Source of the DNA: Plumapathes pennacea
Taxonomy: Eukaryota > Cnidaria > Anthozoa > Antipatharia > Myriopathidae
DNA: 64,000 nucleotides
Assembly (NCBI GenBank): GCA_964036295.1
Contig: OZ038472.1
Span: 2,123,501 to 2,187,500, forward strand
Direction of reading: 5' to 3'
Part shown: positions 177 to 57,536 of the stretch, one piece after another
Numbering within the stretch: position 1 is the first letter of the stretch
Layout: the number at the start of each line of letters is the position of its first letter
Notes under the pieces: model-generated
Told to the model about the DNA's origin: nothing
Seen by the model: the letters and a program-made list of their open reading frames with translations, nothing else
Databases searched by the model: none
Program-made: the position numbers and the translations under genes

Positions 177-2596
177 TGGTGAATTGTGGAGATCCAGGAG
201 TACCACCCCACGGAAAACAAGTGCAAGTTACAAACTTCAATTTTGGGGAATCAGTTGTTTTTGTCTGTGACGCTTCTTATAATTTAGTAGGCAGCAGGAA
301 GATCACCTGTCAACAAGACAAGAACTGGAGTGGAGAACCACCACAGTGTGTCCGTAAGTATATTGTCAGTACTAAACTGTCCGTTGCTTAAGGTTTTCCG
401 CACGTGTATCCTTAATTTGCGTCCAGCTTATGAAATTTGGTTTGTGCATTTCAAGTCTCCCCAATTAGCACGGCAGTGCTAAATACATTGAGACTTGATC
501 ATCACTCAATCCTCAAAGTAAAATAACCAAGCTACGTCTAGAAGCTTTTGAAAACGCATTTTTCTCTTTACGTTTTGGCATTCCGTCCACACCATGTCAG
601 CTTTTTCGGTCACGAAATGCGTCCAGTTTATGATATTTGGTTTCTGCATTTCAAGTCTCCCCATTCAGCACGGCAGTTCTAAATACATTGAAACTTAAAT
701 AAAGTGATTTTTTTTAAATTTATATATTTATTTTTTATTTATTTTTACCTGCTTGAGTAAAGTTCGTATACTGGTACGTTAGTTATAAAGAATAGCATGT
801 AACGGTTTATGTTTTAATTCAGCATCTAGCCATTCGTTTCACTTGTGCAATGTTAAACATGGGTCCAGCCACATTGGCTCATTCATTACAAACATTGCCA
901 AACCAGCTGTCAGATGATGCTTCAAGATTCGTCTGACGAATTATCCATATCTGGTCAGTATACTTTCGGCCAATATCTACTCTAATCTCAAGGTCACTCA
1001 TATCATTTCTCACTCAGAACTTTGCTCTAATCCTGGCCAGCCAAAGAACGGGATGAGAATGGATCACAACTTCAGTTTTGGACAAGTCGTGAGGTTTCGA
1101 TGCAACCCTTACTTTTTACGGAAGGGTCCACGCGCCATTAAGTGTCAAAACGGGAGATGGGACGGTCCAGTACCACAGTGTTCAGGTGTGTGAAACTGCC
1201 GTGATGTTTACGTACAGTCGTGAAGTCTTGGGCAAAAGGAACATGGACTGAAGGCAATTGCAATTAGGTTATCAATCAAAATATACACACTTCTAGATAT
1301 TTGCTTCACATATTGTATACAGTAGTGATGCACGTGTACACATATATACATTGAACGAACCAGGTTGTAGAATTGAATCAACAACCCTCAGTGCTAATCA
1401 TTTCTTCTTATTTCATCAGAATGCGCCGCTACACTAACACATACCATACAGGATAAGTCTGGTGGCTCCATAACTTTGAAACTGCATGAACCTACACTGA
1501 TTACTGGGCTAAAAATGAAGATGAAGGCAAAAGCACGCGCGTGTAAGTTATACTTGAAACTTCAATTCAACAAAGAAAAGAAAGAATGGAAAACGACCTA
1601 CAGAGTTGGAGGTCAAGATAAGGTACTTGTCACTTTCTGTAAAATTGCGAAAGTTTGGTAGAGCTCATCTTGTGTAATGTGTTTTGAAAGTTGAAATAGA
1701 AAGATTGCAAAATCATGCTTTCATAAAAATAGTTCAAGAGATGGCCTGAGAATTCCACCTCGGCTAGCAATATCGATTTTATATTTCTTTTCATTTTTCT
1801 GCCCTCGCGCATTCTAACCAAACTGTCTTTCCCTTTATCTCTCTGTCAGTATCTTATCATTCTGTTATTCTTGTTTTCTTTGTATCTCCGTCTGTGAGAT
1901 TAAGGCCTGAAATTAATGTTTTGTTTTTCAGATCTTTGAAGACATTTCAGGAACATCTTTGAAACACTTAATTTTCAAGGAGCCTTTTATTGCTCGGCGG
2001 TTACAACTCAAATGCCAAGGGGAAAAGAAGCCTGACCTGAAGAGTGCAACACTTGTGGGCTGTAAAAATACCAAAGGTGCGAAAATATGAGCTATAAAAT
2101 GTCTGCTCATCTTTGTCACAAATGTCACATTTTCTATTTCAATTGTGTATTTTAGTGTTTCCCTAGTCTGTATTCTACGTTGTCTTGTCCTTTTTGTTAA
2201 ACGTCTTTGTCACTACATCATTATCCCTCCCTACCACTGTATTTCTCAGGATTCTTCGACTGCATTCTGGTCGGTTCCAAGGTCTGGGTATCGGCCAACA
2301 CCGCCAATCGAACGGTTTATAAGCAGGAGTACGTGCACAGTCTTCAAACGGGGGAAGTTAAGATCAACCCAAAAGGAAAGTATATCAAGAATATTGTACC
2401 AGACATAATCGCCAGCAAAAATATGCTGAAACCTGGGACACGGGTGATTGCTAAGGATGGTGGGATGTTTTATGGTGGAACGGTTAAACGTGAAATGGGG
2501 AATTCCCAATGGAAGATAGAAAGCCCTGGTGGTGTTTGGATCAGTGACCTGAATAACATTCGCATTATTGAACAACCGAAATACTGCGCTCTTTGA
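177..2596 (+). CDS. Gene 1 of array: CCP/C-terminal-module secreted protein, 5' partial
   Basis: This is the 3' end of a gene that begins before the window. Exons read as 177-353 (CCP), 1018-1185 (CCP), 1420-1622, 1932-2076 and 2250-2596, all with GT-AG borders and compatible phases (1-1, 1-1, 1-0, 0-1, 1-stop), giving 345 residues plus TGA. Both CCP domains keep four cysteines and the NC-GDPG or LC-xxPGQP start. The last three exons form the C-terminal module shared by all four paralogues, ending in PKYCAL. CCP domains usually bind protein or glycan ligands outside the cell, so a secreted adhesion or recognition role is inferred. Nothing in the visible part is broken. The signal peptide and F5/8C exons expected upstream lie outside the window. 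Confidence 0.85.
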
Positions 2597-2782: not shown

Positions 2783-4289
2783 ACTGTAGCAAAGGAATGT
2801 TTTGTCTTTTTCATGCAGTTTTCCATATTCCTTTCCATCGCGTATCTCGTCGTATTGGGTTGGCCCTTGCGTTAAAGTGAAGTTAGCGTCACTGTACTTT
2901 TGAACCACATTCTTGCAGTAACTGTTTCGTATTGGCCACAATGAAATGGCTTAAATGTTTTCTTTTTTAGGGAGCAACCTGTCGAACAAGCTCATTGTGT
3001 CAAGTTTCGTCGTGTATTGTGTTGTTGCCTGGTAAACTATGCGTTGTTTTCTTGCTATATCTCGTCAATGCTAAAGAAAACTAACACAATTGTATTGCAG
3101 AAAGTCTCGTTATAGTCCCAGGAAGATTTCCCGAAAGTTTCAAGAATTTTGACTTTTCCGTCGTCTTTTTTTTTCTTTCTTTTTTTCTTTTTCTTTTCTT
3201 TCTTCCGATACGGCCTCCTGGAAGAAGTTGTTTCTGTAAGCCACTTTCACAGTCATGTGCAGTAGCAAAAAGCACTTGTAAATCGTGTTTTGTGTCTATA
3301 GTTATACACTACCCGCCACGTTTTATCGTCTAGTGGCTCGCAGGAAAATCTGCACTCCGCGAACTGCGCATGACTGTGAAAGTGACTTGAGCTTGAGCGC
3401 AGTTTTTTCCGGAACCAACCCTAACGTCACGTAACAGCTTTGCATGTGTTAAAACCTCTACATCTCAAGCAATGATTTTCCAATCCGTTTTCGTTTGAAA
3501 AGAAATGGCCGAACTTTATATGCGTTTTTGCTTTTCGTTCATACTAAAACGACAACTTAAAGAATGGTTCAAATGAAACGAATTATGCGGGCGACTTTAA
3601 AACCGAGGATTATTGTCGACGGGCGAAAACGGAGGTTTTTGAAGACAACAAACCAACAGGAACCCTTTCGTGTGTATTGATTGATAACTTGCGTAGTGCG
3701 GAAATCGAAGCTGACAGGAGGCCATCAAAACAATTTGGAAGATGAAGGAAGAAATTATATCCGAAATCGTATAAGGAAATAAAATTGTAGTAAAGGAAAG
3801 TTGTTATCATGCAGTTTTTCACATTCCCTTTCTAACACGTTTCTCTCGTATTGGGTCGTCCCTTGCGTTAAAGTGAAATTAGCTTCACTGTAATTTTGAA
3901 CCAAAATTTTGCAGAACTTTTTTCGTATACCACGCACAATGAAATGGCATTGATGTTTTCTTTTTGTAGGGGGTAACCTACAATTTTGTCGAACAAGGTT
4001 GTTGTTGTCAAGCATCCTCTTTCCAGTTTCTTTTCCCTGCCCCGCCCCCTCTTCGTGCTGTCTACGAGTTACACAGGGAATGTGAGCCGACTTGCATGAC
4101 CTTAATGGAAGACCTTGTGTCAGCTTCGATTTCTGCTGCACGCAACTCTCATAATCAAAAAAATATATATATCGTTGTGCGAGCTGACTGAGTAAGCTTT
4201 TGTGAAATATTTCCAAAGAAGACACATTTAACCAGCCACAAACTACAACAGTTCTGACAACCTTTGTAACTTTGCTAGATACTGACGGT

Positions 4290-4473
4290 TTTGTATTATT
4301 TCCGTGTCAGCACACACATATTTATTTTGGCTTTTACTTTGGTGGTGAACCAATCATATGCCAGCCTACACGCCATGAAAGAAGACGCCGAACTTATATC
4401 ACTTAATACTGCCATCCGGGTCAAACCAACGGAAGCTAAAGAAAAGAGAAGCCAGAGTGAAGACATCACAAAG
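4290..4473 (+). promoter_or_regulatory. Candidate untranslated first exon of gene 2
   Basis: The sequence ends in a good donor (AAG|GTGAGA, intron from 4474), and a good acceptor (TTTTCGACAG, ending 4770) lies 14 bases before the gene 2 ATG. The matching donor (18506) and acceptor (18803) are kept upstream of gene 3. A long reading frame here resembles a signal peptide, but it starts at TTG and has no upstream ATG, so I read it as 5' UTR rather than as a protein. The upstream limit is unknown. Confidence 0.3.
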
Positions 4474-4784
4474 GTGAGAAGTTACTTCACCGGTTACTTC
4501 ACAACCCTTTTCAATCTTAAGGAACTTCTCCGCATTATTTAAGAGTTTCTTTTTCAGTTTGCATACAGTCTCTTGGATTTGATGCAGCGTACCATAGACC
4601 AATTTACTTTGTGATCGATGCTTAAACTAACTTATGGTCATTTGATTTGCCATGAGTAATTTCACAATTTCTAACTGCTCAGTATCTCGGAGCCTCCAAG
4701 TCTTTATCATTATATTTTCGACAGGACAGTGTCTGAATTTATATACTGACTCAGTTCGGCTTTTCGACAGAACTGATCGGGTTG

Positions 4785-7700
4785 ATGGCTGCAAGACCAG
4801 CCGTGCTTTTGCTGGCTGTGGAACTCATTTTATTTTCTGCTTCAAACTCGGCAGGTAACATCGTATTCAGTTCATTTTTCTCAAAGAGTTCCTGTGTAAT
4901 CCAACTTAGTAAATTTCTGCTTAATTATAAAAATAGACGAGAACAAGAGAACTTCGCCGATATAATATTTCAATCCTAGTTACCTTTGAAATTTGCTTGT
5001 GGTTGTTCTCATTCGTGACATGGGTTCTGCCGGGATGTCGATGGCGTTGACATTTTGATGGCGTTGGTCAGTAACTATGGCGTCAATTTTGGGAAATTTG
5101 CCCCAGTTTCATTGTGTGACAAATGTGAAGTACACAGTATGGAAAAGGTGATACTGGCTATTTAGTTATTGTAGTAATTCCCCATGCTCCTGATTTCATG
5201 CTACACTGCAAAATATGCAATTTAATCTCTCTAACCTTTCAGGGTTTTGCTAGTTTAGCTTTAGCTTCAGCACATTATCATATCATGCTCTCTGGCTATC
5301 GTCCAGAGGCTGACACAAATTTCAGCACGGTCAGCTCTAAAAACAAATAGTTTTACACACTTGAAAATGATCTTTAGTGAACACCAGTTCTTTTCCTTCT
5401 TCCTCCATCTTTATTTTTACAATAATGTTTCCAGGATGCAAGCAAGCTCTTGGACTGCAAGATGGAGGAATAAAAAACGAAGCAATCACCGCTTCGTCCT
5501 GGAAAGACGACAACCACAAACCTCAGTTTGCCAGACTGAACAGCGAAAAGGCCTGGTGCTCGGGGAACGAGACGTCGCCGTATTTACAGATATCTCTCAG
5601 TGAAGTTCACAAGATCACGGGTATTGCAACCCAAGGAAGCTTGCGTGACAAGCAGTGGGTGACTGAATACGAGATTCACTACACCACAAACGCAAGCGGA
5701 TGGAAAGTACACAAGGTGAGGTTTAAAATAAAACAAACAAGTACTATATAAGGGTTTACGATTTTAAGCTTGCTCTGCGATGAAGTAACGTCAACTGGCG
5801 AAACTGTCAATTTGGATTGGTTGGCATTTCGAGCATGCAGTCCTTCATCAGAGCCGAACTCAAAGTGGCATTGCAATTGAGCACAAGGAATAAATACTTA
5901 GGAGTCGCTTAGAAGTTGCGATTGCATTTTCGATTGGTCCAAACAAGTTTGGCATTATTCTTTGCCAATCAGAAACAAAGCCGGAAGAAAACCCGATTGC
6001 AAGCAAGAGTACGATGTCGTCTTAGTGAACGCATATAACATTTTTCACGTGACCACTGATAAACCTCGTATAATTATAATGAAATACATTACATCAGGAT
6101 GTTTATATAATTTACGGTTATCAGCCACCTAAACGGTGAAACATGGCCAACAAATTGGAGTATTTCCACCCTGTTGCTGGGTGAACATGCTTTTTTACGG
6201 CCTGTGATTAAGCTCTGTATACTTATATTGGTTTTGGACGTTTTCGACAGAACATGGAAAACCGCTCTGTTATAGACATTTAAGATATGTGGTGCGTGTC
6301 TATACAGACTAAACGGGTTTTTTTAATGCACCTTATAAAACAGGCTTCAAATGGGAAACAAATCTTCCAAGGCAACAGTCATTTTCAAAGAACTTCAAGA
6401 CACAAGTTCTGTGTTCCCCTCATCGCCAACGCAATTCGGATTTTTCCAACCAAGGCAATCAGTAGGTCTAGTGGATTTACAGAGTTTTGTCTCAGGGTGG
6501 AGATTTATGGGTGCAAAGGTGAGCCAACTAAATAGTGCCCCTCATATTGTTAGTTTCCAAACTCATCAATATTCATGACTTTGTATCAGCCAACCAGCGC
6601 ATCGCATTTGGTCAGGTGGATCAGGTTTTGAAACAGCGTCAAACACTGGTTTGAGTGATTGATACAACTGTTTCCAATTCTAGAGATAAAATTTCTTACT
6701 TTGCATACATTCCTTTGAGAAGTTATTAAAACCCGTGCTTCTATTCAAGGCATGTGAGATAGGGTTTAACTTTCACATTAGGTTGTTGTCCTGTCTCATC
6801 TTCTAGAAGTGACATGTGAAGATCCAGGAGTACCAACACACGGGAAGCAAGCACACGTTTCAAACAACTACAGATTTGGGGGATCCGTTATTTTCGCCTG
6901 TGACGCTTCTTATAAGCTAGTAGGGAACAAGGCAATAACTTGTCTTGAAGACAAGAGCTGGAGTGGAAAAGCACCACAATGTGTTGGTAAGTGTAAAGCA
7001 ATCGCTTATTAGTTGAGAAATGTGTGTAAAAGGCTTCAAAACTGTACGCCATTCCATATTTGTTACGCAGGATTATGCTCTGACCCTGGCCAGCCAAAGA
7101 ACGGGATAAGAATGGATCACAATTTCAGTTTTGGACAAGTCGTGAGGTTTCGATGCAACCCTTACTTTTTACGGAAGGGTCCACGCGCCATTAAGTGTCA
7201 GAGCGGGAAATGGGACGGTCCAGTACCACAGTGTGTAGGTGTGTGAAACTGTTGGGGTATTTGCGTACAGCGCCGTGAAGACTAGGGCAAAAGGAATATG
7301 TACCGTAGGCAATTGCTATTAGGTTATCAATCACAATAAACACGCAAAAGAATGATTAAAAATATTTATCTATGTAATTAGATCTTTGTTATTATTATAG
7401 TCGAATTGTCCTTAGTCCACACTATGCCGGCTTTTTTCGGTCACGAAAACGCAAGTTTTTGAAAACGCTCTTCAGAGTAGAACTCTTTGTAAACGCAATT
7501 TGATATTTTGTGCACGGGCGAAAACGGAACTTTTCGAAAACTCTGACGTCACTTTCTTTTCCATTTGGTGTTTGCAACTCATTTTTGCGTGGGCGACCAA
7601 AAACGAATCCAAAACGATTATTGTGGACGGAGAAAGTTTCGTAAACGGAAAAAGAAATGTTAGGGTTTCAAACGAAAACGGCCTAGTGTGGACGGGGCCT

Positions 7701-10700
7701 AATGTGAAACGATAAAAAGACGACCAAAGGACGATACTAACTATATACGGAACAAGTATGATGAACTAATTATAACTACTCTGATATGTCACGTTATTAA
7801 GGTTTTCTCTGTCCATTATACAGTGATTGACTGTGGCTCCCTGCCCGCTCCAGCTAATGGGAAGAAAATATCGGAAACCAAGACGACGTATCAAGGCGAA
7901 GTGGTGTTTGAATGTGAAAAGATAGGATACGAACTGAAGGGGCCCAAAATCCGATATTGTCAAAAAAACGGCGAATGGAGCGGATCCCGCACCACATGTG
8001 AAGGTGACAGTTTCAGATGTTATTAGTAGCTTTATTATTATTATTTTATTTTATTTTATTTTATTTACAGAAGAGATATCCAGTGGATCTGTTATAGTAA
8101 ACCATCATTTATAGTATTATTTATTATTGGCTAGAATGTCATACCGCTCCTATGAACGAACGTTGATAATAACAAGTTTTGTATTCATCTCTTATATTCG
8201 ACTTTATTTTTATTATTTTAGCGGTGAGTTGTGGTGACCCAGGAACACCAAGTAATGGAAGACAGGAGGTTGTCACGAAAAACTACCGCTACTCAGGAAC
8301 TGTAACTTTCGGTTGTGCAACTAATTACACGCTGATTGGAAACAAGGAAATAATCTGTAGGTACGACAAAAGCTGGACTGGGAATATTCCACGCTGTGCA
8401 GGTGAGGGAAGATTTCTGTCAGAGCGGTTTTCGGATGACGTTTCGTAAAACCAGAATCAAAGTAATTGCACCACCAATAACACAAGTTGTAAGAAAGAAC
8501 ACTTTGAGCTGATAGAAAAGCTGAAGCAAATAATATAAACATTTTCTTTGAAAAACAGGTGTGCGAGGAAACGCCATCGCCACTTGTCATTTGCTTGTGT
8601 GAGAAGATTGAATCAGGTTTCGATTTTGTTCCTGGCTGGTCTAAATGTTGCAAAATACACAATTCCTTTTGACTGTTGTCTGAAACTACTCTTGTCACAC
8701 ATTTCTGAAGTTATCAAAACAATATTTTGTAACATACACGACATAGAAACAAAACTAAGTGAGAAGGAAATATTACGTAATCAGATACACTTTATCTACA
8801 GAAATGATACGTTATATGAGTTCTATATAACTGGCCGAGTTCAGGACTTGGGTCAGTTTATGATTAAAGAACAAAAATTATTATTAGTTAATACTAATAC
8901 TAATACTAATACTTATTATTGTGTTGTGTATCATCAGCCCCTTGTCAAGATCCAGGTCACCCGGAAAACGGCACCACAGTTAGCAATGGCTTCATTCATG
9001 GACAATCTGTGCAGTTTGAATGTATTAAAGGATTCTTGTTTGTGGGCGCAAAGTCTTCTAAGTGTCAGGATGGACGCTGGAGCAACAGTGTTCCTAAATG
9101 TTTCAGTAAGTATGCATTTTACTTTCTTGAAATAATGTGTCTCAAAATTTGGGATTAACCCTTATGCTATTCAGACTGCTGACAGAACACTCTACGCCAC
9201 ACAACCAATGTCCCAAGTATAAGAGAGTTCCTGCTTGCAAGCATTTGTACTAACTGTTCGTCTAGTATACGAGGAAACACGAGGGTAATTGTTATAGAGA
9301 CGAGATCAATATCATAGCAAGTTATGGTCTGTTACTTAGAGAATAGACGAAACATGTCAGATTTTTTGCAAGATAGATCTTTATAGTCTTCCCTAGAAGG
9401 GACTTACTGAATAAACGACTGGCACTAACTCTAATTTGTTGTTTTTGTTCCCAAAAGGCCCCTGTCTGGATCCAGGCACTCCAGACAACGGGAGGCGCAG
9501 GTCTAGTAACCGTAATTTTGAGCATAACAACGTAATCACATTCACATGTGACAGGGGTTACGATCTTAAAGGGGCCAATGATATAAAGTGTCAGAACGGC
9601 CAGTGGAGCAGCATAAAACCGCGCTGCGAAGGTAAACTTGGATCGACAGCGAATACAGTATTAAAATGGTGAAACAAAAAGGGGGGGGGGGGAATTAGAT
9701 CGTAGTTCAAAATCGTTATAATTTTAATTTTATCGCCTTTTATTTTTAATCATAAAATTAAATTTGAATGCTGACCAACGGGAGTGACGTCAAGAGCTAC
9801 ACGGGCTAAGGCTTCTCTAATTGTTCGACATTTTATCGCTCTTATTCTCCTGTGCAGTGAAAGCTTGCCCAGCTCCATTAGTGCCCTCCAATATGAGAAT
9901 AAGTCGACCTTTAAAATTACCGTCAAGCTTCCAGTTAATGCAGCGTGTTATGTATGCGTGTAAACCCGGCTACTACCGATATCAAGGGAGTCCCATTAGA
10001 GAGTGTGGTATAACAGGGGAGTGGAGCAAGCTGACCCAGATATGCAGACGTAAGTACGACTCTTTCTCACATCCAGAGAAGTACGAAAAGTCTGCCAGTC
10101 AACATTGAGCATTTAGGTTGTTTTACGAAGAATGGCCGCCAAATCTTTCCATTTCAGCAAGACCTACACCTCTATTTAAAGGTTTAAATTCATCCCTAAG
10201 TTCAAAATGTAGATTTTCTTAGCCATTCATTTCAGCCAAGACTTGCGGGGACCCGAAAACACCCATCAACGGGAAGAAGCACGGCTACGAATACACATTC
10301 GGAAAGAGGGTGCACTACAGCTGCGACAATGGTTTCAAGCTTGTGGGCTCAAAGTATCGCAACTGTCAGTCAAACCAGGTTTGGAGCGGCTCATTGCCAA
10401 AATGCAAAGGTACATATCCTTAATGGAGCCATGCATGATCATCGCACGAAGGGGTGCTCCTCAAAGTAAATTAAGTAAGGCTACGTCCAGAAGCTTTTGA
10501 AAACGCATTTTTTCCTTTTTACGTTTTGGCATTCCGTCCACACTATGCCGGCTTTTTCGGTCACGAAAACGCAACTTTTTGAAAACGCTCTTCAGAGTAG
10601 AACTCTTTGTAAACGCAATTTGATATATTGTGAACGGGCGAAAACGGAACTTTTCGAAAACTCTGACGTCACTTTCTTTTCCATTTGGTGTTTGCAACTC

Positions 10701-13700
10701 ATTTTTGCGTGGGCGATCAAAAACGAATCTAAAACGGTTAGTGTGGACAGGCAAAGGTTCGTAAACGGAAAAATATGTTAGGTCTCAAACGAAAACGGCC
10801 TAGTGTGGATGGGGTCTAATATGAAACGATAAAAAGACGACGAAAATAACTATACAGACAAGCTAAAGGCCAATAACGGTTATGATGAACTAATTATAAC
10901 TACTTTAATATGTCACGTTATTAAGGTTGTCTCTGTCCATTATACAGTGGTTGACTGCGGCTCTCTGCCCGCTCCAGCTAATGGTAAGAAAATATCAGAA
11001 ACCAAGACGACGTATCAAGGCGAAGTGGTGTTTGAATGTGAAAAGATAGGATACGAACTGAAGGGGCCCAAAATCCGATATTGTCAAACAGACGGCGAAT
11101 GGAGCGGATCCCGCACCACATGTGAAGGTGACAGTTTCAGATGTTATTAGTAGCCTTATTATTATTTTTTATTTTATTTTATTTACAGAAGAGATATCCA
11201 GTGGATCTGTTAGTAAACCATCATTTATAGTATTATTTATTATTGGCTAGAATATCATACCGCTCCTCTGAACGAACGTTGATAATAACAAGTTTTGTAT
11301 TCATCTCTTATATTCAACTTTATTTTTATTATTTTAGCGGTGAGTTGTGGTGACCCAGGAACACCAAGTAATGGAAGACAGGAGGTTGTCACGAAAAACT
11401 ACCGCTACTCAGGAACTGTAACTTTCGGTTGTGCGGCTAATTACACGCTGATTGGAAACAAGGAAATAATCTGCAGGCACGACAAAAGCTGGACTGGGAA
11501 TATTCCACGCTGTGCTGGTGAGGGAAGGCCTCTGTTAGAGCGGTTTTCGGATGACATTTCGTAAAACCAGAATAGAATTGCAGCATCAATCACATAAGCT
11601 GTAAGAAAGAACACTTTGAGCTGATAGAAAAGCAGAAGGAAAAAATATATACATTTTCTTTGAAAAACAGGTGTGCGAGGAAACGCCATCGTCACTTGTC
11701 ATTTGCTTGTGTGAGAAGATTGAATCAGGTTTCGATTTTGTTCCTGGCTGGTCTAAATGTTGCAAATTACACAATTCCTTTTGACTTTTGTCTGAAATTG
11801 CTCTTGTCACACATTTCTGAAGTTATCAAAACAATATTTTGTAACATACACGACATAGAAACAAAACCAAGCAGATACACTATATCTGCAGAAATGATAC
11901 GTTATACAAGTTCTATATATGGGTCAGTTTATGATTAAATAATAATAATAATTATTAGTTAATACTAATACTAATACAACTAATAATAATTATCGTGTTG
12001 TGTAACATCAGCCCCTTGTCAAGATCCAGGTCATCCGGAAAACGGTACCACAGTTAGCAATGGCTTCATTCATGGACAATCTGTGCAGTTTGAATGTCTT
12101 AAAGGTTTCTTGTTCGTGGGCGCAAAGTCTTCTAAGTGTCAGAATGGACGCTGGGGCAACAGTGTTCCTAAATGTTTCAGTAAGTATGCATTTTACTTTC
12201 TTGAAATAATGTGTCTCAAAATTTGAGTGTAACCCTTATGCTATTCTGACTACTGACAGAACACTCTACGCCACATAACCAATGTCCCAAATATAAGAGA
12301 GTTCCCGCTGCTCGCGAGCATTTGTGCTAACTGTTCGTCTAGTATACGAGGAAACACGAGGGTAATTGTTACAGAGACGAGATCAATATCATAACAAGTT
12401 ATGGTCTGTTATTTAGAGAATAGACGAAACATGTCAGATTTTTTGCAAGATAGATCTTTAAAGGTTGGTGTCTTCCCTTGAAGGGACTTACTGATTAAAC
12501 GACTGGCACTAACTCTAATTTGTTTAATTTGTTTTTGTTTTTTGTTTGCAAAAGGCCCCTGTCTGGATCCAGGCACTCCGGACAACGGGAGGCGCAGGTC
12601 TAGTAACCGTAATTTTGAGCATAACAACGTGATCACATTCACATGTGACAGGGGTTACGAGCTTAAAGGGGCCAATGATATAAAGTGTCAGAACGGCCAG
12701 TGGAGCAGCACAAAACCGCGGTGCGAAGGTAAAGTTGGATCGACAGCGAATACATCAAATTCAGTGTCAAAATGGTGAAAAAAAAAAAAGGATGAGATCG
12801 TAGTTCCACATCATTATATTTTTAATTTTATCGCGCCGCGAAGAAGCTACAGAATAATTGGGGGGGGGGGGGGGGCGTGTAAGGTTTTTATCCGAAAGTC
12901 TTCACAAACGGACATCCCGTATCCCGCCACTAAGAAATCCCGCCTCCTACTCTCTCTGCTCCCGCACACCTTCCCGTTTCCCCCTTCCCTCCCACTAAGT
13001 TGCACTTCCTGTCTCACAATGAAGAAAGAAAGGAATTTTAGGGCTAGTGACACAAGCCTCTAATTTTCACCGCGTTGCGTGATAAGCTGTCGTAGGGTAA
13101 TTGCCTCGGGTGAACCTAAAGTCATTTCCAGTGGGGTTTGTTTGATCTATTCTTGTTGTCCTGTCTCTTGTTTTGCAGTGGTGAATTGTGGAGATCCAGG
13201 AGTACCATCCCACGGAAAACAAGTGCAAGTTACAAACAACTTCAATTTTGGGGGATCAGTTGTTTTTGCCTGTGACGCTTCTTATAATTTAGTAGGCAGC
13301 AGGAAGATCACCTGTCAACAAAACAAGAGCTGGAGTGGAACACTACCACAATGTGTCCGTAAGTGTATTGTCAGTGCTAAACTGTCCGTTGCTTAAGGTT
13401 TTCCGCACATGTATCCTTAATTTGCGTCCAGCTTATGAAATTTGGTTTCTGCATTTCAAGTCTCCCCAATTAGCACGGCAGTGCTAAATACATTGAGACT
13501 TGATCATCACTCAATCCTCAAAGTAAAATAACCAAGCTACGTCCAGAAGCTTTTGAAAACGCATTTTTCTTTTTACGTTTTGGCATTCCGTCCACACCAT
13601 GTCAGCTTTTGCGGTCACGAAATGCGTCCAGATATTTGTTTCTGCATTTCAAGTCTCCCCAATCAGCACGGCAGTTCTAAATACATTGAGACTTAAATAA

Positions 13701-16160
13701 AGTGATTTTTTTAAATTTATATATTTATTTATTATTTATTTTTACCTGCTTGAGTAAAGTTCGTATATTGGTACGTTAGTTATAAAGAATAGCATGCAAC
13801 GGTTTATGATGTTCTAATTCAGCATCTAGCCATTCGTTTCACTAGTGCGATGTTGAGACTGGGTCCAGCCACATTGGCTCATTCAATCATTACAAGTATT
13901 GCAAAACCAAGCTGTCAGATGATGCTTCAAGATTCGTCTGACGAATTATTCGTATCCTGGTCAGTATGCTTTCGGCCAATATCTACTCTAATCTATAGGT
14001 CACTCGTATTATTTCTCACACAGAACTTTGCTCTGATCCTGGCCAGCCAAAGAGCGGGGTAAGAATGGATAATAATTTCAGTTTTGGACAAATCGTGAGG
14101 TTTCGATGCAACCCTTACTTGTTACGGAAGGGTCCACGCGCCATTAAGTGTCAGAACGGGAAATGGGACGGTCCAGTACCACAGTGTTCAGGTGTGTGAA
14201 ACTGTCGTGATGTTTGCATTTTCAAGATGGCAACTATTTAGCAGTTTGATTGAAAATTATGCCTGGAGTGTCCGCTGTAACCAGAGTCAAAACAATGGAA
14301 ATGTTGCATTATTGGCCATAAACAGCGAGAATCCGTAATTAAGGGCAGTTGTTTTCAGTCAAATCCCTATACTTTTCGCCGTGGGTGCTGTCCGTATTAC
14401 CGGGGTGTCCGCAAGGTGAGAGTTGACTGTATACATTAAATACTTTGTTCTACACATTTGTGAGTACCATATGCATTTCAACGAATCTGGCTGTAGATAT
14501 TGAATCAACAGCCCCCCCTCCCCCAAATGATACTGATTATTTCTTCTAATTGTACCAGAATGTGCAGCTCCAGTACAACATGTCACTCGAGAAGATCAGC
14601 CTAAGACTATAACTTTGAAATTGCGAGAAGCTGCATTGATTACTGGGCTAAAACTAAAGATGAAGGCAAATGCAGGCCCGTGTCAGTTATACTTAAAACT
14701 TCAAGTTCCCAAAGAGCAGAAAAGTTGGAGAACAGTCTACGAAGAAGGAGGGTCGGATAAGGTACAAACTATGCTTTAATCTGCAAGGAACTTTCGTGCG
14801 AAAGTTTCATGCTGGTCGCATTAAGAGCAGTTTTTGTTGGGGTTAGGGTTTGTAAAACCTGAAACCTCTCTTCCCGACTTTCAGTTGTGGTAGCGTGGGA
14901 ATTTTGCATCTATTCTTGCAGCGGTGGGGTACATTGCATAATGTGTTTTGAAAGTTGGAATGGAAAGTTTACAAAATAATGGTATCATAAAGATAGCTCA
15001 GGAGATGGCCTTCCCCAAGAATTCCATTTCGGCTAGCAATATTGTCTATTTATTACCTTCCTTCCTTGTTCCTTCCTGTACTCTATCCAACCTTTTTTCC
15101 CTTTTTAATTTATCTGTCGTTACAGTTTTCACTGTGTGTCTCACTTAAGAAATTGAAGCCATTAATATTTTATTTTTCAGGTCTTTCCAGTAAAACCAGG
15201 AACACCGAAACACTTTAAGTTCAACGAGCCTTTTATTGCCCAGGGGTTAAAACTCAAATGCAGCGGGAAAAAGAAACTTGACCTGGAGAGTGTAACACTT
15301 GTGGGCTGTGAAGATTTGAAAGGTGCAAAAATATGAGCTATGAAATGCCTGCTCATCTTTTTCTGTAATTCTACGTTGTTTTGGCCTTCTTTTTAAAGGG
15401 GCCCTTTGAACCAATTAGATGATTCTGTTTACTCCAAGGCATAATTTGCTTCCCAACACGAGAGAACGTAATTAATTGAAAAAAAAAAAAAGGTTCAGGT
15501 TAGCATCTTAGATAAAAAGAAACTTGTATTATTCTGAAGCAAGTCGGATGAAATGAAAGGCAATTCATTGATCCGCCATTTTTAGGTCCCTGAAAGTCGA
15601 AAGATGAATAGCAAAGATTTTCATCTTACTCGTCTTGGAAGAAGATTAGCCGTTCTTTTGATCTAAAAGTGTTTTTATGTTTCTATCCCTTGCTTTTTTT
15701 TGTTGTTGTTGTTGATTAATTTACAGTGAATGGGCTGACTGAAGAGCCCTTTTGATGTGCTCTGTCACTCCTTCATCACTCTCTCTTTCTCTATTATTTC
15801 CCAGGAACCTTCGACTGCATTCTCGTCGGTTCTAAAATCTGGGTGAGAGAAAAATCGGCCAACAACGAGAACCGAACGGTTTATCAGCAGGAGTACGTTT
15901 ACAAGATTCAAAATCAAGAAGTTGTAATCAACCGAGGAGGACCTTTAATCGCGAAAATTGTACCAGACATAATCGCCAGCAGAAATATGCTGACTCACGG
16001 GACACGGGTGATTGCTAAGGATGGTGAGACGTTTTATAGTGGAACAGTTAAAGGTGAAACAGAAAATTCCCAATGGAAGATAGAAAGCCAGGGCGTTGTT
16101 TGGACCAGTGACCTGAACAACATTCGCATTATTGAACAACCGAAATATTGCGCTGCTTGA
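4785..16160 (+). CDS. Gene 2 of array: secreted F5/8C - 14x CCP - C-terminal-module protein
   Basis: Twenty coding exons join in frame to 1230 residues: 4785-4854, 5435-5715, 6344-6518, 6807-6986, 7071-7238, 7824-8003, 8222-8401, 8938-9105, 9458-9631, 9858-10049, 10236-10409, 10948-11127, 11338-11517, 12012-12179, 12555-12728, 13179-13358, 14024-14191, 14559-14761, 15181-15322, 15805-16160. Residues 1-24 are a signal peptide (MAARPAVLLLAVELILFS...). Residues about 25-175 are an F5/8C domain (starts GCKQALGLQDGGI, ends LRVEIYGC). Residues about 176-997 are 14 CCP domains, one per phase 1-1 exon, each with four cysteines. Residues about 998-1230 are the C-terminal module. No transmembrane segment is seen, so the product should be secreted. 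F5/8C domains generally bind lipids or glycans and CCPs bind proteins, so a recognition or adhesion role is inferred. The TGC-GG start and matching phases support the chosen ATG. Confidence 0.85.
7411..7702. mobile_element. Intronic MITE, GTCCACACTATGCCGG family
   Basis: The element lies in intron 5 of gene 2. It begins near AGTCCACACTATGCCGG and ends near CCTAGTGTGGACGGGGCC, which are imperfect inverted termini. The interior is rich in GAAAACG and CGTTTTC. Related copies lie at 10480-10818, and partial ones near 535-620 and 13540-13625. No coding capacity is seen. Confidence 0.6.
7411..9660 (+). repeat. Four-CCP block duplication inside gene 2, copy 1
   Basis: Exons 6-9 of gene 2 and their introns (7824-9631, with flanking sequence) are repeated as exons 12-15 (10948-12728). 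Matching extends through the introns, including the same MITE at the 5' end and the same ATT/AAT-rich tracts. Exon 6 and exon 12 proteins differ at very few positions (QKNGEW against QTDGEW). This is a recent tandem duplication of about 2.25 kb, separated by exons 10 and 11. Confidence 0.85.
10480..10818. mobile_element. Intronic MITE, GTCCACACTATGCCGG family, longer copy
   Basis: This is the intron 11 copy in gene 2, duplicated with the CCP block. It starts near CTACGTCCAGAAGC and ends near TAGTGTGGATGGGGTC. It is longer at its 5' side than the copy at 7411, so that copy may be truncated. The interior has repeated GAAAACG and CGTTTTC words. Confidence 0.55.
10480..12780 (+). repeat. Four-CCP block duplication inside gene 2, copy 2
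   Basis: This is the second copy of the block at 7411-9660 and carries exons 12-15. Compared with copy 1 it has small indels in introns, such as a shorter ATT tract before exon 14 and a different leader before exon 15. The exons keep the same lengths (180, 180, 168, 174). Both copies are in frame and unbroken. Confidence 0.85.
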
Positions 16161-17357: not shown

Positions 17358-18817
17358 TGGTGACCCGCAGAAAAATCTGCGCTCCGCAAACTGCGCATGA
17401 ATATGAAAGTGACTCATTGCGGAGCTTGAGTGCAGTTTTTCCCGGAACCAACCCTCACGTCATGGCTATTGAAACCCTTAAATCTCACGCAATGATTTTC
17501 CAATCCGTTTTCGTTTGAACAAAAATTAGCCGAATTCTTATATGCGTTTCTGCTTTCCGTTCATACTAAAACGAAAACGTAAAGAATGGTTCAAATGAAA
17601 CGAATTGTGCGGGCGAATCTAAAACCGAGGATTATTGTCAACGGGCGAAAACGGAGGTTTTTGAAAACAGCAAACAAACAGGACCCCTTTCTTGTGTATT
17701 GATTCATAACTTGCGAAGTGCGGAAATCGAACCTGACAGGAGGCCATCAAAACAATTTGGAAGATGAAGGAAGAAATTATATCAAGGAAATCGTATAAGG
17801 AAATAAAATTGTGGTAAAGGAAAGTTGTTATCATGCAGTTTTCCACATTGTTTCCCTTTCTAACACGTTTCTCTCTTATTGGGTCGGCCCTTGCGTTAAA
17901 GTGAAATTAGCTTCACTGTAATTTTGAACCAAAATTTTGCAGAACTTTTTTCGTATATCACGCACAATGAAATGGCATTGATGTTTTCTTTTTGTAGGGG
18001 GTAACCTACAATTTTGTCGAACAAGGTTGTTGTTGTCAAGCATCCTCTTCTCAGTTTCTTTTCCCTGCCCCGCCCCCTCTTCGTGCTGTCTACGAGTTAC
18101 ACAGGGAATGTGAGCCGACTTGCATGACCTTAATGGAAGACCTTGTGTCAGCTTCGATTTCTGCTGCACGCAACTCTCATAATCAAAAATATATATATAT
18201 CGTTGTGCGAGCTGACTGAGTAAGCTTTTTGTGAAATATTTCCAAAGAAGACACATTTAACCAGCCACAAACTACAACAGTTCTGACAACCTTTGTAACT
18301 TTGCTAGATACTGACGGTTTTGTATCATTTCCGTGTCAGCACACACATATTTATTTTGGCTTTTACTTTGGTGGTGAACCAATCATATGCCAGCCCACAC
18401 CGCGCCATGAAAGAAGACGCCGAACTTATATCACTTAATACTGCCATCCGGGTCAAACCAACGGAAGCTGAAGAAAAGAGAAGCCAGAGCGAAGACATCG
18501 CAACGGTGAGACGTTACTTCACCGGGTTACTTCACAACCCTTTTCAATCTTAAGGAACTTTTCCGCATTATTTAAGAGTTTCTTTTTCAGTTTGCATACA
18601 GTCTCTTGGATTTGATGCAGCGTACCAAAGACCAATTTACTATGTGATCAATACTTAAACTAACTTATAGTCATTTGATTTGCCATGAGTAATTTCACAA
18701 TTTCTAACTGCTCAGTATCTCGGAGCCTCCAAGTCTTTATCATTATATTTTCGACAGGACAGTGTCTGAATTTATATACTGACTCAGTTCGGCTTTTCGA
18801 CAGAACTGATCGGGTTG

Positions 18818-21800
18818 ATGGCTGCAAGACCAGCCGTGCTTTTGCTGGCTGTGGAACTCATTTTATTTTCTGCTTCAAACTCGGCAGGTAACATCGTATT
18901 CAGTTCATTTTTCTCAAAGAGTTCCTGTGTAATCCAACTTAGTAAATTTCTGCTTAATTATAAAAATAGACGAGAACAAGAGAACTTCGCCGATATAATA
19001 TTTCAATCCTAGTTACCTTTGAAATTTGCTTGTGGTTGTTCTCATTCGTGACATGGGTTCTGCCGGGATGTCGATGGCGTTGACATTTTGCGGATGGCGT
19101 TGGTCAGTAACTATGGCGTCAATTTTGGGAAATTTGCCCCAGTTTCATTGTGTGACAAATGTGAAGTACACAGTATGGTGATACTGGCTATTTAGTTATT
19201 GTAGTAATTCCCCATGCTCCTGATTTCATGCTACACTGCAAAATATGCAATTTAATCTCTCTAACCTTTCAGGGTTTTGCTAGTTTAGCTTTAGCTTTAG
19301 CACATTATCATATCATGCTCTCTGGCTATCGTCCAGAGGCTGACACAAATTTCAGCACGGTCAGCTTTAAAAACAAATAGTTTTACACACTTGAAAATGA
19401 TCTTTAGTGAACACCAGTTCTTTTCCTTCTTCCTCCATCTTTATTTTTACAATAATGTTTCCAGGATGCAAGCAAGCTCTTGGACTGCAAGATGGAGGAA
19501 TAAAAAACGAAGCAATCACCGCTTCGTCCTGGAAAGACGACATCCACAAACCTCAGTTTGCCAGACTGAACAGCGAAAAGGCCTGGTGCTCGGGGAACGA
19601 GACGTCGCCTTATTTACAGATATCTCTCAGTGAAGTTCACAAGATCACGGGTATTGCAACCCAAGGAAGCTTGCGTGACAAGCAGTGGGTGACTGAATAC
19701 GAGATTCACTACACCACAAACGCAAGCGGATGGAAAGTACACAAGGTGAGGTTTAAAATAAAACAAACGAGTATTATATAAGGGTTTACGATTTTAAGCT
19801 TGCTCTGCGATGAAGTAACGTCAACTGGCAAAACTGTCAATTTGGATTGGTTGACATTTCGAGCATGTAGTCCTTCGTCAGAGCCGAACTCAAAGTGGCA
19901 TTGCAATTGAGCACAAGGAATAAATACTTAGGAGTCGCTTAGAAGTTGCGATTGCAGTTTTCGATTGGTCCAAACAAGTTTGGCATTATTCTTTGCCAAT
20001 CAGAAACAAAGCCGGAAGAGAACCCGATTGCAAGCAAGAGTACGATGTCGTCTTAGTGAACGCATATAACATTTTTCACGTGACCACTGATAAACCTCGT
20101 ATAATTATAATGAATTACATTACATCAGGATGTTTATATAATTATTTTATCAGTCACCTAAATGGTAATACATGGCCAAAAAAATTAGAGTATTTCCACC
20201 CTGTTGCTGGGTCAACATGCTTTGTTACAGCCTCTGTGACTTAGCTCTGTATACTTATTTTGGTTTTGGACGTTTTCGACAGAACATGGAAAACCGCTCT
20301 GTTATATACATTTAAGATATGTGGTGCGTGTCTATACAGACTAAACGGGTTTTTTTAATGCACCTTATAAAACAGGCTTCAAATGGGAAACAAATCTTCC
20401 AAGGCAACAGTCATTTTCAAAGAACTTCAAGACACAAGTTCTGTGTTCCCCTCATCGCCAACGCAATTCGGATTTTTCCAACCAAGGCAATCAGTAGGTC
20501 TAGTGGATTTACAGAGTTTTGTCTCAGGGTGGAGATTTATGGGTGCAAAGGTGAGCCAACTAAATAGTGCCCCTCATATTGTTAGTTTCCAAACTCATCA
20601 ATATTCATGACATTGTATCAGCCAACCAGCGCATCGTATTTGGTCAGGTGGATCAGGGTTTTGAAACAGCGTCAAACACTGGTTTGAGTGATTGATACAA
20701 CTGTTTCCAATTCTAGAGATAAAATTTCTTACTTTGCATACATTCCTTTGAGAAGTTATTAAAACCCGTGCTTCTATTCAGGGCATGTGAAATAGGGCTT
20801 ACTTTCAAATTAGGTTGTTGTTCTGTCTCATCTTCTAGAAGTGAAATGTGGAGATCCAGGAGTACCAACACACGGGAGGCAAGAGCACGTTTCAAACAAC
20901 TACAGATTTGGGGGATCCGTTATTTTTGCCTGTGACGCTTCTTATAGGTTAGTAGGGAACAAGGCAATAACTTGTCTTAAAGACAAGAACTGGAGTGGAA
21001 AAGCACCACAATGTGTTGGTAAGTGTAAAGCAATCGTTTATTAGTTGAGAAATGTGTGTAAAATTAAAGGCTTCAAAACTGTACGTCAATCCTTATATTT
21101 GTTACGCAGGATTATGCTCTGATCCCGGCCAGCCAAACAACGGGATGAGAATGGATCACAACTTCAGTTTGGGACAAGTCGTGAGGTTTCGATGCAACCC
21201 TTACTTGTTACGGAAGGGTCCACGCGCCATTAAGTGTCAGGACGGGATCTGGGACGGTCCAGTACCACAGTGTTCAGGTGTGTGAAACTGTCGTGATGTT
21301 TGCGTACAGTGCGTGAAGTCTAGGGCAAAAGGAACATGGACCAAAGGCAATTGCAATCAGGTTATCAATCACAATATACACACTAGATATTTGTTCCACA
21401 TATTGTATACAGTATTGATGACATTCATTGAACGAATTTTGGTGATTTTGAATTAACAACCCTCAGTGGTGCTGATAATTCTTTTCTATTTTCATCAGAT
21501 TGCGCCGCTACACTACAAAATACCAGAGAGGATCAGTCTAGTGGCGGCATAACTTTGACATTGCGAGAAGCTACACTGATTACTGGGCTAAAACTAAAGA
21601 TGAAGGCAAAAGCACCCAAGTGTAAGTTATACTTGAAACTTCAAATCCACGAAGAGAAGAGAGAATGGAAAACGTTCTACAGTGAAGAAGGTCGGGATAA
21701 GGTACAAATTATGCTTACATATAATCAAAAATAAGAACTTATGACACTTTCTGTAAAAATGAAAAAGCTTTGTTGCCATGCTTGTTAAGAGGGGCTTTTT

Positions 21801-22765
21801 CGAATAACATTTTTCGGTAAAACCAAAGTTCCCTGTCTTGACTTTCAGATAGCTGTAGTGTGAGAATTTTGCACCCATTCTTGCAGCGGTGTGGTACACT
21901 GTATAATATGTTTTGAATAGAATGCACCTCGGCTGACAATATCGACTTTATCTTCCATCCTTCTCCCCTCATATAACTTCTTTTCCTTCTATACCTCTGT
22001 CATTATCTTATCTGTCATATCTGTCATTCTTGTTTTACTTCTGTCTGTCCGATTTGTCTGTGAAATTAAAGCCTGAAATCAATATTTTGTTTTCCAGCTC
22101 TTTCAAGTAAATTCAGGAACATCTTTGAAACATTTAAGTTTCAAGGAGCCTTTTATTGCCCAGCAGCTAAGACTCAAATGCTTAGGAAAAAAGAAACCTG
22201 ACCTGGAGAGTGTAACACTTGTGGGCTGTAAAGATATCAAAGGTGCGAAAATATGAGCTATAAAATGTCTGCTCATCTTTGTCATAGTTGTCATATTTTA
22301 TATTTCAATTGTATGCATTTTAGTGTTTTCTTAGTCTGTAATTCTACGTTGTCTTGTCCTTCTTGTTAAACGTTTTTGTCACTATATCATCATCTCTCTC
22401 TATCTCTGTATTTCCCAGGATTCTTCGACTGCATTCTCGTCGGTTCCAAAGTCTGGGTATCGGCCAACACCGACAAGCGAACGGTTTATAAACAGGAGTA
22501 CGTGCACAAGATTCAAAATGAGGAAGTTAAGATTAACCCAATAGGAACGTATATCAAGAATATTGTACCAGACATAATCGCCAGCAGAAATATGCTGACT
22601 CCCGGAACACGGGTGATTGCTAAGGATGGTGGGACGTTTTATGGTGGAACGGTTAAACGTGAAATGGGAAATTCCCTATGGGAGATAGAAAGCAACGGCG
22701 TTGTTTGGGCCAGTCACCTGAATAACATTCGCATTATTGAACAGCCAAAATACTGCCCTGTTTAA
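18818..22765 (+). CDS. Gene 3 of array: secreted F5/8C - 2x CCP - C-terminal-module protein
   Basis: Eight coding exons join in frame to 522 residues: 18818-18887, 19465-19745, 20376-20550, 20839-21018, 21110-21277, 21499-21701, 22098-22242, 22419-22765. The order is signal peptide (1-24, identical to gene 2), F5/8C domain (about 25-175), two CCP domains (about 176-291) and the C-terminal module (about 292-522, ending PKYCPV). This is the shortest complete member and shows the minimal plan of the family. Its first five exons match gene 2 exons 1-5 closely, while its C-terminal exons resemble those of gene 1 (for example GTSLKH and DIKG). All frames are open and it is probably functional. No membrane anchor is seen, so secretion is expected. 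Confidence 0.85.
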
Positions 22766-24392: not shown

Positions 24393-24572
24393 ATGGCAAG
24401 ACAATTGCTTTTGCTGGCTGTGGAACTTGGGGTGTCTATAAAACGAAGACCGAAGACCGAAGACCCAAAAACGAAGACCCCCCTTTTTTCTGTTGTATCA
24501 TCATGAAAAGTCACTAAATGTCGTAAAACACAACTTATACAACGAAAGGACCATTCAGCGTTGAAATAACTA

Positions 24573-24918
24573 GGGTCTTCGTTTTATAGTTTACCCCCAC
24601 CAAAACTATAAAACGAAGACCCCTTCCAATTTGGTTCAAAGTTTCGTAAACAACCTTAAATGCGCTCGAAAACTACATTTCAGCAACCAAAAACACTAGA
24701 AACGCGCATATCTTATAAATTGATCAGGGTCTTCGTTTTATAGTTTACCCCCACCAAAACTATAAAACGAAGACCCCCTTCAATTCGGCTCGAGATTTGT
24801 AAGACAATGTATAATGCATTCGAAAACTACATTCACTAGAAACGCGCATATCTTAAAAATTGATAGGGGTCTTCGTTCACCATAGTTTGCCCCCACCAAA
24901 ACTATAAAACGAAGACAC
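24573..24918. repeat. Three hairpin units in the transposon left arm
   Basis: Near-perfect palindromes of about 50 bp lie at 24573-24623, 24727-24778 and 24866-24918. Each reads GGGTCTTCGTTTTATAGTTT, then ACCCCCACC, then the inverse ending ACGAAGACCC. Unique spacers of about 90-105 bp separate them. The third unit is decayed (CTTCGTTCACCATAG). Transcripts across them would fold into stable hairpins. Confidence 0.85.
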
Positions 24919-25376
24919 CTTAAAAATGCGCACGGCTAAAAATACGCACACATTTAAGTGCTTGCTGTATTTTGCGGAGAACAATGAGCAAGTAACATGT
25001 TATTCGATCATTTCCGGAAGCTCGTTTGGACAATAGACAATGAATAAATAAACCGGCAAATGAATAAGTCGATAAACCGACGCTGTGAGTGGAAGAACTA
25101 AAAAGGAAAAACACCGTATCTGAGGATATTAGTATAATTTTTGTCCTTGTCGCATTGAATCAGCATTGAATCAGCACGCTCACAGCTTTATTTAACGTTT
25201 TTCGCTGCAAAAGTACTGCATATTAAAGAATCTGACACATCTGTTAAGCGTCATGTATTAGCTGACACCCGGCTTTGTTCAAAACTGTATCGACCCCATG
25301 TAGCAGCAGTTATATAGCATCATCATATCAGCGGAAACCTCGTGTTATCGAGGTTTCTTCTGGCAGTCCATTTAAT

Positions 25377-25857
25377 ATGGCTTCAAAACTACCGTGTATC
25401 ATACATAAAAGTATTGACTGTTCGGGCATTTTTGTCTACGATTACCGAAAATTCTTTGACAAAGAAGAAATCAGTAAAGACAGCTTCGGTTCCGTATACA
25501 CGGCCAATATTCCGAGTGATGATGGTGGGCGCAGTGAGAAAGTTGTGATCAAGAAATTGCTCAGCCAAGACTTGGAAGTTAAGAAGAACTTTGTCAAGAG
25601 GCAAGAATCTTACAGAATCTAAAACACGCAAACATTGTGAGTTTAAAGGGAATTTGCAATGCATCATTCGCCCTGGTCATGGAATAATTATGTCTTCTTT
25701 GACTTTGAGCCCTTTGGCGGCAAGACCAAAGTCAGCTTCCTCGAGGATTTTGTATCTTATGTTGGACTGCTTTGATTTAGGTTTAACAGTGCGCATTTGT
25801 ACAAGAAAGTCTGCAAAGACATTGCCTTGGCCCTGGAGTACCTGCACGGCAAAATTG
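25377..25857 (+). pseudogene. Protein kinase domain fragment carried inside the transposon
   Basis: The first frame opens with MASKLPCIIHKSIDCSG and contains a glycine-loop-like stretch (ISKDSFGSVYTA) and an ATP-lysine strand (EKVVIKKLL). After a frameshift near 25600 the next frame reads LQNLKHANIVSLKGIC and FALVME. A further frameshift near 25684 leads to NYVFFDFEPFGGK and, after a TGA, to CKDIALALEYLHGKI, typical of kinase subdomains IV-VIa. It stops just before the expected HRD catalytic loop, where the right arm begins. It has at least three lesions and is non-functional. It was probably captured from a host gene. Confidence 0.75.
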
Positions 25858-25860
25858 GAG

Positions 25861-26064
25861 GGGGTCTTCGTTTTATAGTTTTGGTGGGGGTAAACTATAA
25901 AACGAAGACCCTGATCAATTTCTAGATATGTGCGTTTCTAGTGTTTTTGGTTGCTGAAATGTAGTTTTCGAGCGCATTTGAGGTTGTTTACGAAACTTTG
26001 AGCCGATTTGAAGGGGGTCTTCGTTTTGTAGTTTTGGTGGGGGTAAACTATAAAACGAAGACCC
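25861..26064. repeat. Two hairpin units in the transposon right arm
   Basis: Palindromes lie at 25861-25911 and 26013-26064 and are inverse copies of those in the left arm. The spacer between them matches the left-arm spacer in reverse complement (GTTTCTAGTGTTTTTGGTTG against CAACCAAAAACACTAGAAAC). Confidence 0.85.
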
Positions 26065-29797: not shown

Positions 29798-30510
29798 CTT
29801 CTTTTTCATCAGAGTGTAACAAACTGTTTCGTTACGCGAGAAACAACGCACATGCCTGGAGAAGGAACCGCGTTGAGTTGAAGTTTCCTGAGGCGCGTAA
29901 GATAACAGGACTGACGGTATCCGTGAAGTTGCAAACAAAGAACTGGAAATTCCTCCTCAGACACAAAACGAACGGACAATGGATCACATACGCTGAACAG
30001 GGCAAAACAAAGGTACGTACATGCGGTGTTCATTGCTGAAAAGTGGCTTGTATAAATGTGTAACACTTGACCCGTTTTAGGCTTTCAGAGTAAGAAATGG
30101 AACATTAGTCAAGAAGCTCACTCTGGCAGAACCCGTCATCACCAGACAGGTGTCGCTTCAAGTGTTATCGAGACAAACTGTGTCTATGAAGCAAGTGACA
30201 GTTCAAGGATGCAAGGCGCCATCTGGTAAGATATCGAATTCTCCCTCAAGTCATACAGTCTCACATCTCTCCCACTGTATACACCCTATGGCAAAACAAA
30301 AATAGCTCTTTAAAGGACAAACGCCCCGACTCGCTAATAAATAGGACATTTTTGCCCCTATAAGTCTGCACCTTGCGTTTCAGCTGTTACTAGACAATTC
30401 CTCTTCTAATTCTGAGGTTTATTACAGTATGAGCGAACTTGAATATGTGGATTGGACATTCGGTGACATATTGTGCATGTTGTGCGTTGCGCACAGAGGA
30501 ATATCAGTTT

Positions 30511-30710: not shown

Positions 30711-31093
30711 AGTACAAAGCAATATTTCTCTCACTTTCAGATTCTTCCGACTGTATTCTCGTTGGCTCTAAAGTCTGGATAAAAGGAAAGTCGGCCAGAA
30801 ACGAGAAGCGAACAATTTATCACAAAAACACCGTGAAAGGAATCAAAAACAAAAAAGTCATAGTTTCCACATCCCGACTCTACGCCAGCGAAGCTATCCC
30901 GGATGTTATAGCCACAGAGAGTTCACTGAGGACCGGGTTGAGCGTGATTGCAGTGGATTCTGGGAAGTACTACGGTGGAAGCGTTCGCCGTGAGGTTGGC
31001 AAGTCCGTGTGGGAGATACAGAGTCATGACGTCACGTGGAGAAGTCAAACAGCTGACATTCGTGTTATTGAAAACCCAGAGTATTGCTTTTAG

Positions 31094-40165: not shown

Positions 40166-40198
40166 TAAATCGACAGAGCTGACAAACGCCCTGTGCAT

Positions 40199-54110: not shown

Positions 54111-57536
<3,426 letters not shown>

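Follow-up and report, generated by a model that had tools for sequence, protein, structure and literature searches.

The window analysed here is a stretch of 64,000 nucleotides (nt) from the genome of the antipatharian Plumapathes pennacea (assembly GCA_964036295.1, contig OZ038472.1, forward-strand positions 2,123,501 to 2,187,500); coordinates below count from its first letter. Between 1 and 31.1 kb, genes g1, g2, g3 and g4 form a tandem array on its + strand, and each of them is closed by the same module of three exons. The module very probably encodes a reduced F5/8C-like (discoidin-like) domain, on exons M1 and M2, followed by a tandem Tudor domain on exon M3. All three exons have AG/GT splice edges and open frames without an internal stop in each of the four genes, as expected from an earlier note on this DNA, which had recognized the module in all of them.

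The exon phases are common to the four copies: M1 runs from phase 1 to 0, M2 from 0 to 1, and M3 starts in phase 1. In g1 (all coordinates on the + strand), M1 is at 1420..1622 and M2 at 1932..2076, both placed by splice edges, frame and PF00754, and the tandem Tudor exon M3 is at 2250..2596 (splice edges, frame, alignment). In g2, the first part of the shortened F5/8C-like domain is M1 at 14559..14761 (splice edges, frame, PF00754) and the second is M2 at 15181..15322, ending in LVGC (splice edges, Pfam, PDB profile). Their lengths, 203 and 142 nt, and their phases agree with those that the earlier note had given (203 and about 142 nt, phases 1-0 and 0-1). M3 with its stop follows at 15805..16160 (splice edges, structure comparison, profile homology). 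In g3, M1 is at 21499..21701 and M2 at 22098..22242 (splice edges, PF00754 and assembly of the gene), and M3 at 22419..22765 (alignment, folding, assembly). In g4, M1 is at 29813..30012 and M2 at 30081..30225 (splice edges, frame, PF00754), and M3, the better of the two folded models, is at 30741..31093 (splice edges, folding, Foldseek).

Gene g3 was assembled from leader exon to stop and encodes 522 residues. The leader-peptide exon (MAARPAVLLLAVELILFSASNSA, 18818..18887, placed by eye) is hydrophobic, ends in phase 1, is joined in phase to the rest of g3 and supplies residues 1-23. A true F5/8C domain extends to residue 175 on two exons (19465..19745 and 20376..20550; assembly and Pfam), and two sushi/CCP repeats to residue 291 (20839..21018 and 21110..21277; PF00084). 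The F5/8C-like part takes residues 292-407 and the last exon 408-522, so that the module occupies residues 292-522, the span that had been assigned to it. A Pfam scan of the whole protein matched F5/8C and sushi. Among g1-g4 the leader exon was placed for g3 and g2 only; that of g2 is identical in sequence (4785..4854, coordinates by hand, g2 not being assembled whole). Judged from the sequence, the domain order looks like leader, F5/8C, a variable number of CCP repeats, F5/8C-like and tandem Tudor, and the protein looks secreted.

The relation of M1M2 to discoidin domains, proposed in the earlier note as a shrunken fold, is supported by matches to Pfam and PDB profiles. PF00754 matches the isolated M1M2 of all four genes at 19.4 to 22.8 bits (E 1.1e-4 to 1.2e-3; the Pfam gathering cut-off is 28.2 bits), and the alignment runs from profile position 30-35 to 114-117 of 127. 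In the 522-residue g3 protein, two stretches pass E 0.01 for PF00754; the best one was located, and the second is presumably the module. A profile of the four copies, searched against PDB sequences, puts factor VIII (6.6e-5) and lactadherin (7.8e-5) at the top. Like the F5/8C domains of PF00754, among them the C domains of these two proteins, M1M2 is matched by the profile, carries cysteines close to both ends (C2 and C112, present in all four copies) and finishes with G-C. Unlike the F5/8C domain of g3, which has 151 residues, it has about 116, lacks the first 30 or so profile positions and scores below the cut-off. The sub-threshold PF00754 scores, the ranking of factor VIII and lactadherin, and a weak in-register match to the F5/8C domain of g3 support M1M2 as a degenerate F5/8C relative without the N-terminal quarter. 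As it stays under the cut-off, M1M2 is not counted as a member of the Pfam family.

The landmarks listed earlier for this part stand in some positions and are restricted in others. All four copies share, without change, ITGL, the W, T and Y, the E-P pair and the closing G-C. An exact ITLKL is confined to g1 and g2, LVGC and FxEPFIA are confined to g1-g3, and g4 has W-x-T-Y. A second cysteine pair is present in g1-g3 and broken as a pair in g4 (by eye). The earlier note had also held that the module mirrors the intron phases of the true F5/8C exon pair. The two pairs do agree in their phases (1-0 and 0-1), but the internal intron of the true pair sits 6-7 codons further upstream within the same loop (by eye), and equal phases therefore do not establish shared descent of the intron. 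A genome search with the F5/8C-like part of g2 returned only exons of g1, g2 and g3 among its best-scored candidates and missed g4. Other profile matches were judged to be chance: Gemini_coat for M1M2 of g4 (E 8.1e-4, slightly better than its F5/8C match and below its own cut-off), and the sub-cut-off MOV-10 barrel, IBV_3C, STIV capsid and CBM_AftD matches to module exons.

The reading of M3 as a pair of Tudor or SH3-like barrels holds, on an AlphaFold2 (AF2) model, structure comparison and profile homology of the linker and second barrel; its assignment to the DUF4537 type does not. Folding from the four-sequence alignment gave a g4 model with two SH3-like barrels packed as one unit, and the nearest fold is the tandem Tudor domain of SETDB1 (PDB 7cd9, 6bhg). 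The AlphaFold and Foldseek check suggested in the earlier note supports it for the M3 part. PF15057 (DUF4537) matched none of the four M3 exons at a maximum E of 10, with filters that drop most matches above about 0.1, and had no match within the window in a scan of the genome; M3 is therefore not filed as DUF4537. The two halves of M3, which had been thought similar, match by hhalign at E 0.07 and probability 0.8 (splits at columns 58, 60 and 62). Because 129 of 500 shuffles reach the score, the repeat is dropped as evidence. Two cysteines, one near each end of M3, are invariant in the four copies, and our guess from the sequence is that they form one disulfide. When M3 of g2 or of g4 was searched against the genome, the best-scored candidates, a non-exhaustive set, included no copy beyond the four in the window. 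Scans with M3 of IMG/VR (47 pattern matches) and of GTDB genome contigs (25 pattern matches) gave no relative.

Other tandem Tudor exons are found elsewhere in this genome. Whole-genome profile searches (290 Mb, 24 contigs) with PF15057 and PF18359 gave 10 and 15 matches respectively, many in short open frames of about 120-136 residues. Two such frames used as queries gave 26 matches each, at 28 places together, some partial. The single-exon tandem Tudor set spans loci L027, L028, L029, L031, L032, L033, L036, L019-L020 and L037-L039. Against curated Tudor models, nine of these sister exons all match Tudor_5 (best 1.1e-13), and seven match DUF4537 (best E 5.2e-7), a tandem barrel family that does not match M3. 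The two halves of the sister exons are alike (E 8.2e-9, 0/100 shuffles). In all nine sister exons for which the 5' edge was read, it is in phase 1 (by eye), as it is in the spliced or joined genes. Their 3' ends are in phase 1, in phase 2 or terminal (by eye), and a uniformly symmetric 1-1 exon is therefore not claimed.

M3 is linked to these exons by profile homology. By hhalign, the M3 profile matches the nine-exon profile over columns 42-109 with a probability of 87% (E 3.8e-6). None of 200 column shuffles attains the score of 37.6, the best giving 19.9, and reversing the profile gives 11.5. Linker and second barrel are the part that is matched, the second barrel by itself at E 4.6e-5. When the first barrel of M3 is compared with the whole sister profile, its best match, a weak one (E 0.006, probability 6), falls on the sister second barrel. 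The phase-1 exon start is common to M3 (4/4) and the sister exons. From these sequences, M3 seems to be a divergent member of the phase-1-starting, single-exon tandem Tudor set of this genome.

The divergence shows at the positions that form the aromatic cage in JMJD2, PHF1 and 53BP1. These were compared in an alignment of 12 sister exons (two of them near-identical duplicates) and two copies of M3, from g1 and g4. At the cage-type positions of the first barrel, the sister exons have the W in 9/12, the Y in 12/12 and an F or Y before D-D-G-D in 12/12; in the second barrel, the W is present in 10/12 and the Y in 12/12. The two M3 copies lack the W as well as both F/Y-D-D-G-D loops, and of the listed positions only the first Y is kept. 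With the cage lost in these copies, M3 is not filed as a methyl reader. Cysteine is absent from 11 of the 12 sister exons, as against the two invariant ones of M3.

The DNA context was read at 18 of the 28 places; outside this reading are C1:330k, 333k and 349k, C2:3.36M, C6:7.43M, C3:21.953M (two), C11:15.157M, C11:15.158M and C11:4.65M. Two of the 18 are taken up below. At eight of the 16 others, a nearby exon on the same strand reaches the Pfam cut-off for an extracellular domain. These are trefoil, EGF and REJ exons at C8:17.469M, an F5/8C exon at C8:17.494M (where only the second barrel is in an open frame), a C-type lectin exon at C3:26.97M, F5/8C and laminin G exons at C11:2.003M, an REJ exon at C1:5.68M, a fibronectin type II exon at C1:6.19M, an Ig exon at C1:42.083M and an EGF exon at C1:340k. 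C1:42.081M and C1:344k look like near-copies of such places (by eye). Three more places carry a leader exon (C4:10.823M, C2:19.14M and C11:0.98M), and the remaining three of the 16, two exons at C3:21.96M and the second C4 copy, are without an assigned context. At C4:10.823M, leader, cysteine-rich and EGF-like exons splice to the Tudor exon in a 267-residue frame; the EGF-like exon is below Pfam cut-offs, and the cysteine-rich exon looks PAN-like, with no Pfam match. At C2:19.14M and C11:0.98M, the leader is joined to the Tudor exon in matching phase, with a coiled-coil-like frame between. Splicing from leader to stop was obtained for C4:10.823M and the first C1:340k gene only; elsewhere the evidence is of gene neighbours, whose adjacency does not prove one transcript. 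Loci L038 and L039 show the order leader exon, coiled-coil-like frame (e.g. ALQKEVEELKNEIEVLKNENEELK) and tandem Tudor exon, and their product is perhaps an oligomeric secreted Tudor protein. At C1:6.193-6.195 Mb (L036 and L022, reverse strand), long frames of Arg/Lys/Trp-rich repeats lie upstream of the Tudor and fibronectin type II exons.

The best explanation overall, which we consider probable, is that the module forms a knob at the C-terminus of a multidomain protein that is secreted and tandemly duplicated, and that M3 is a divergent member of a single-exon tandem Tudor set which this genome carries in extracellular gene settings and which presumably spread by exon shuffling. A number of results weigh against it. 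None of the four isolated F5/8C-like parts reaches the PF00754 cut-off, and the match of M1M2 to the F5/8C domain of g3 itself, though in register, has a probability of 14 and E 0.002. For M3, one AF2 model of five was good (78.1) and the other four scored 55-60; in the g3-first model, the first barrel folded poorly. Between the sister first barrel and that of M3 there is no significant match (the score is reached by 54 of 100 shuffles), and the ground for the putative disulfide is conservation. The frames at C12:13.8M and C4:13.3M (2 of the 18 places), and at C10:2.6M and C1:0.21M, which came from the family searches only, look intracellular by eye. The PDB profile search with M3 gave a Tudor chain, 53BP1, only at E 0.12. 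This last result, together with the Foldseek list, which includes KOW6-KOW7 of DSIF at E 0.026, and the Pfam scan, which under the limits given above listed no Tudor model for any M3 exon, would fit a different small beta-barrel (e.g. KOW, or SH3 of the bacterial kind) that came to resemble a Tudor domain by convergence, with no kinship to the Tudor exons. Such convergence is very unlikely given the colinear hhalign match over linker and second barrel, which no shuffle equals, and the phase-1 start of M3 and sister exons alike.

The two parts of the module differ in their ratio of nonsynonymous to synonymous substitution rates (dN/dS). For the F5/8C-like part, the g1-g3 pairs give 0.94, 1.04 and 1.22, values near 1 that rest on 11.5-20.3 synonymous changes per pair and are a hint only. 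Relaxed constraint would explain them as well, and the one CCP exon pair computed of three, g2 versus g3, is itself at 0.73 (the others are of unequal length); these points too count against the reading. For M3, the same pairs give 0.65, 0.50 and 0.64, and all six pairs 0.39-0.65. Values near 1 in the F5/8C-like part of g1-g3, and the many local duplications in the window, might indicate that the four genes are decaying duplicates whose module drifts without function. Decay is nevertheless very unlikely: frames and splice edges are intact in all four genes, though M3 of g4 is only 42-48% identical to the other copies, and the M3 ratios stay within the range above. The Tudor pair could instead be an inert, disulfide-clamped C-terminal cap that only stabilises the discoidin-like domain and has no ligand of its own. 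The loss of cage residues in the two aligned copies, the two cysteines kept in all four, and the stronger constraint on M3 than on its F5/8C-like neighbour in g1-g3 are in accord with a cap. On the other hand, that constraint is moderate and not strong (0.50-0.65 in g1-g3), and M3 belongs to a set whose other members mostly keep the cage and lie beside many kinds of domain. On balance we regard an inert cap as somewhat unlikely.

Should the module indeed be such a knob on a secreted protein, a mechanism can be put forward tentatively. The N-terminal F5/8C domain would dock on a surface of glycan or lipid, the row of CCP repeats would act as a stalk of variable length, and the knob would be a recognition or partner-binding head. 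The faster-changing discoidin-like part may make contact with the partner, and the Tudor pair, without an aromatic cage and probably pinned by one disulfide, may be a rigid platform. A broader proposal is more speculative, and we hold it rather unlikely in full: the tandem Tudor domain would have been turned into a general extracellular recognition module, its exons spreading through the genome by shuffling beside trefoil, EGF, REJ, C-type lectin, F5/8C, Ig and fibronectin type II neighbours. The window genes would then carry a derived branch that gave up the cage for a platform pinned by a disulfide, next to a discoidin-like head that changes rapidly, and the sisters would read extracellular ligands. 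Since most of the 12 aligned sister copies keep the cage, they may recognise lysine or arginine in methylated form, or another quaternary-ammonium group such as phosphocholine, outside the cell, possibly on microbes, released chromatin or self proteins.

The array has other features of duplication. By eye, g2 has about 14 CCP exons (6782-14193), compared with two in g3, and several of them come from an internal duplication of ~3.1 kb, in which pieces of 300 nt share 91-98% identity (e.g. 7757 and 10881). The 5' parts of g2 and g3 with their upstream DNA (3824-6501 and 17852-20533) are 98-99% identical in 300-nt pieces, whereas the modules are far more diverged, with 67% protein identity in M1M2; either mosaic divergence or gene conversion could account for the contrast. 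Upstream of g4, at 24478-26159, inverted repeats, whose 236-nt arms are 94% complementary and separated by 1210 nt, flank fragments of a frame that resembles a protein kinase (25266-25619 and beyond; likeness judged by eye), and the whole looks like a mobile element with a captured gene fragment. Tandem repeats lie at 53093-53824, 39637-40176 and 54882-55500, with spacings of 93, 32 and 9 nt respectively.

In their known roles, Tudor domains read methylated histones and other proteins of the nucleus or cytoplasm. SETDB1 is a nuclear histone reader with aromatic cages, and the Tudor domains of 53BP1, PHF1 and JMJD2/KDM4 are intracellular histone readers. Unlike SETDB1, M3 sits in a protein with a putative leader, is without the cage residues and carries two cysteines that never vary among the copies. 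Secreted SH3-like proteins of animals, MIA and OTOR, have a single SH3-like domain of another family. A literature search, with most subscription papers and all preprints outside its coverage, found no extracellular or secreted Tudor domains among the papers listed, which for the broader topics were a part of all hits. In the accessible part of one paper, the terms extracellular, secreted, sushi, immunoglobulin and signal peptide have no occurrence (PMC12147562), and in that of another, Tudor is a marker of mitotic host cells (PMC8162421). The parts of the module, F5/8C and the tandem Tudor fold, are known; what would be new is the putative extracellular use of a tandem Tudor domain. The novelty looks wider than the earlier note held, since the module seems to be a divergent branch of a set of such exons. 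If the reading is true, tandem Tudor exons in secreted or membrane ectodomains would move the fold outside the cell, and which methylated or quaternary-ammonium ligand is bound there would become a directly testable question. It would also be a plain example of exon shuffling that brought an intracellular reader domain into recognition proteins.
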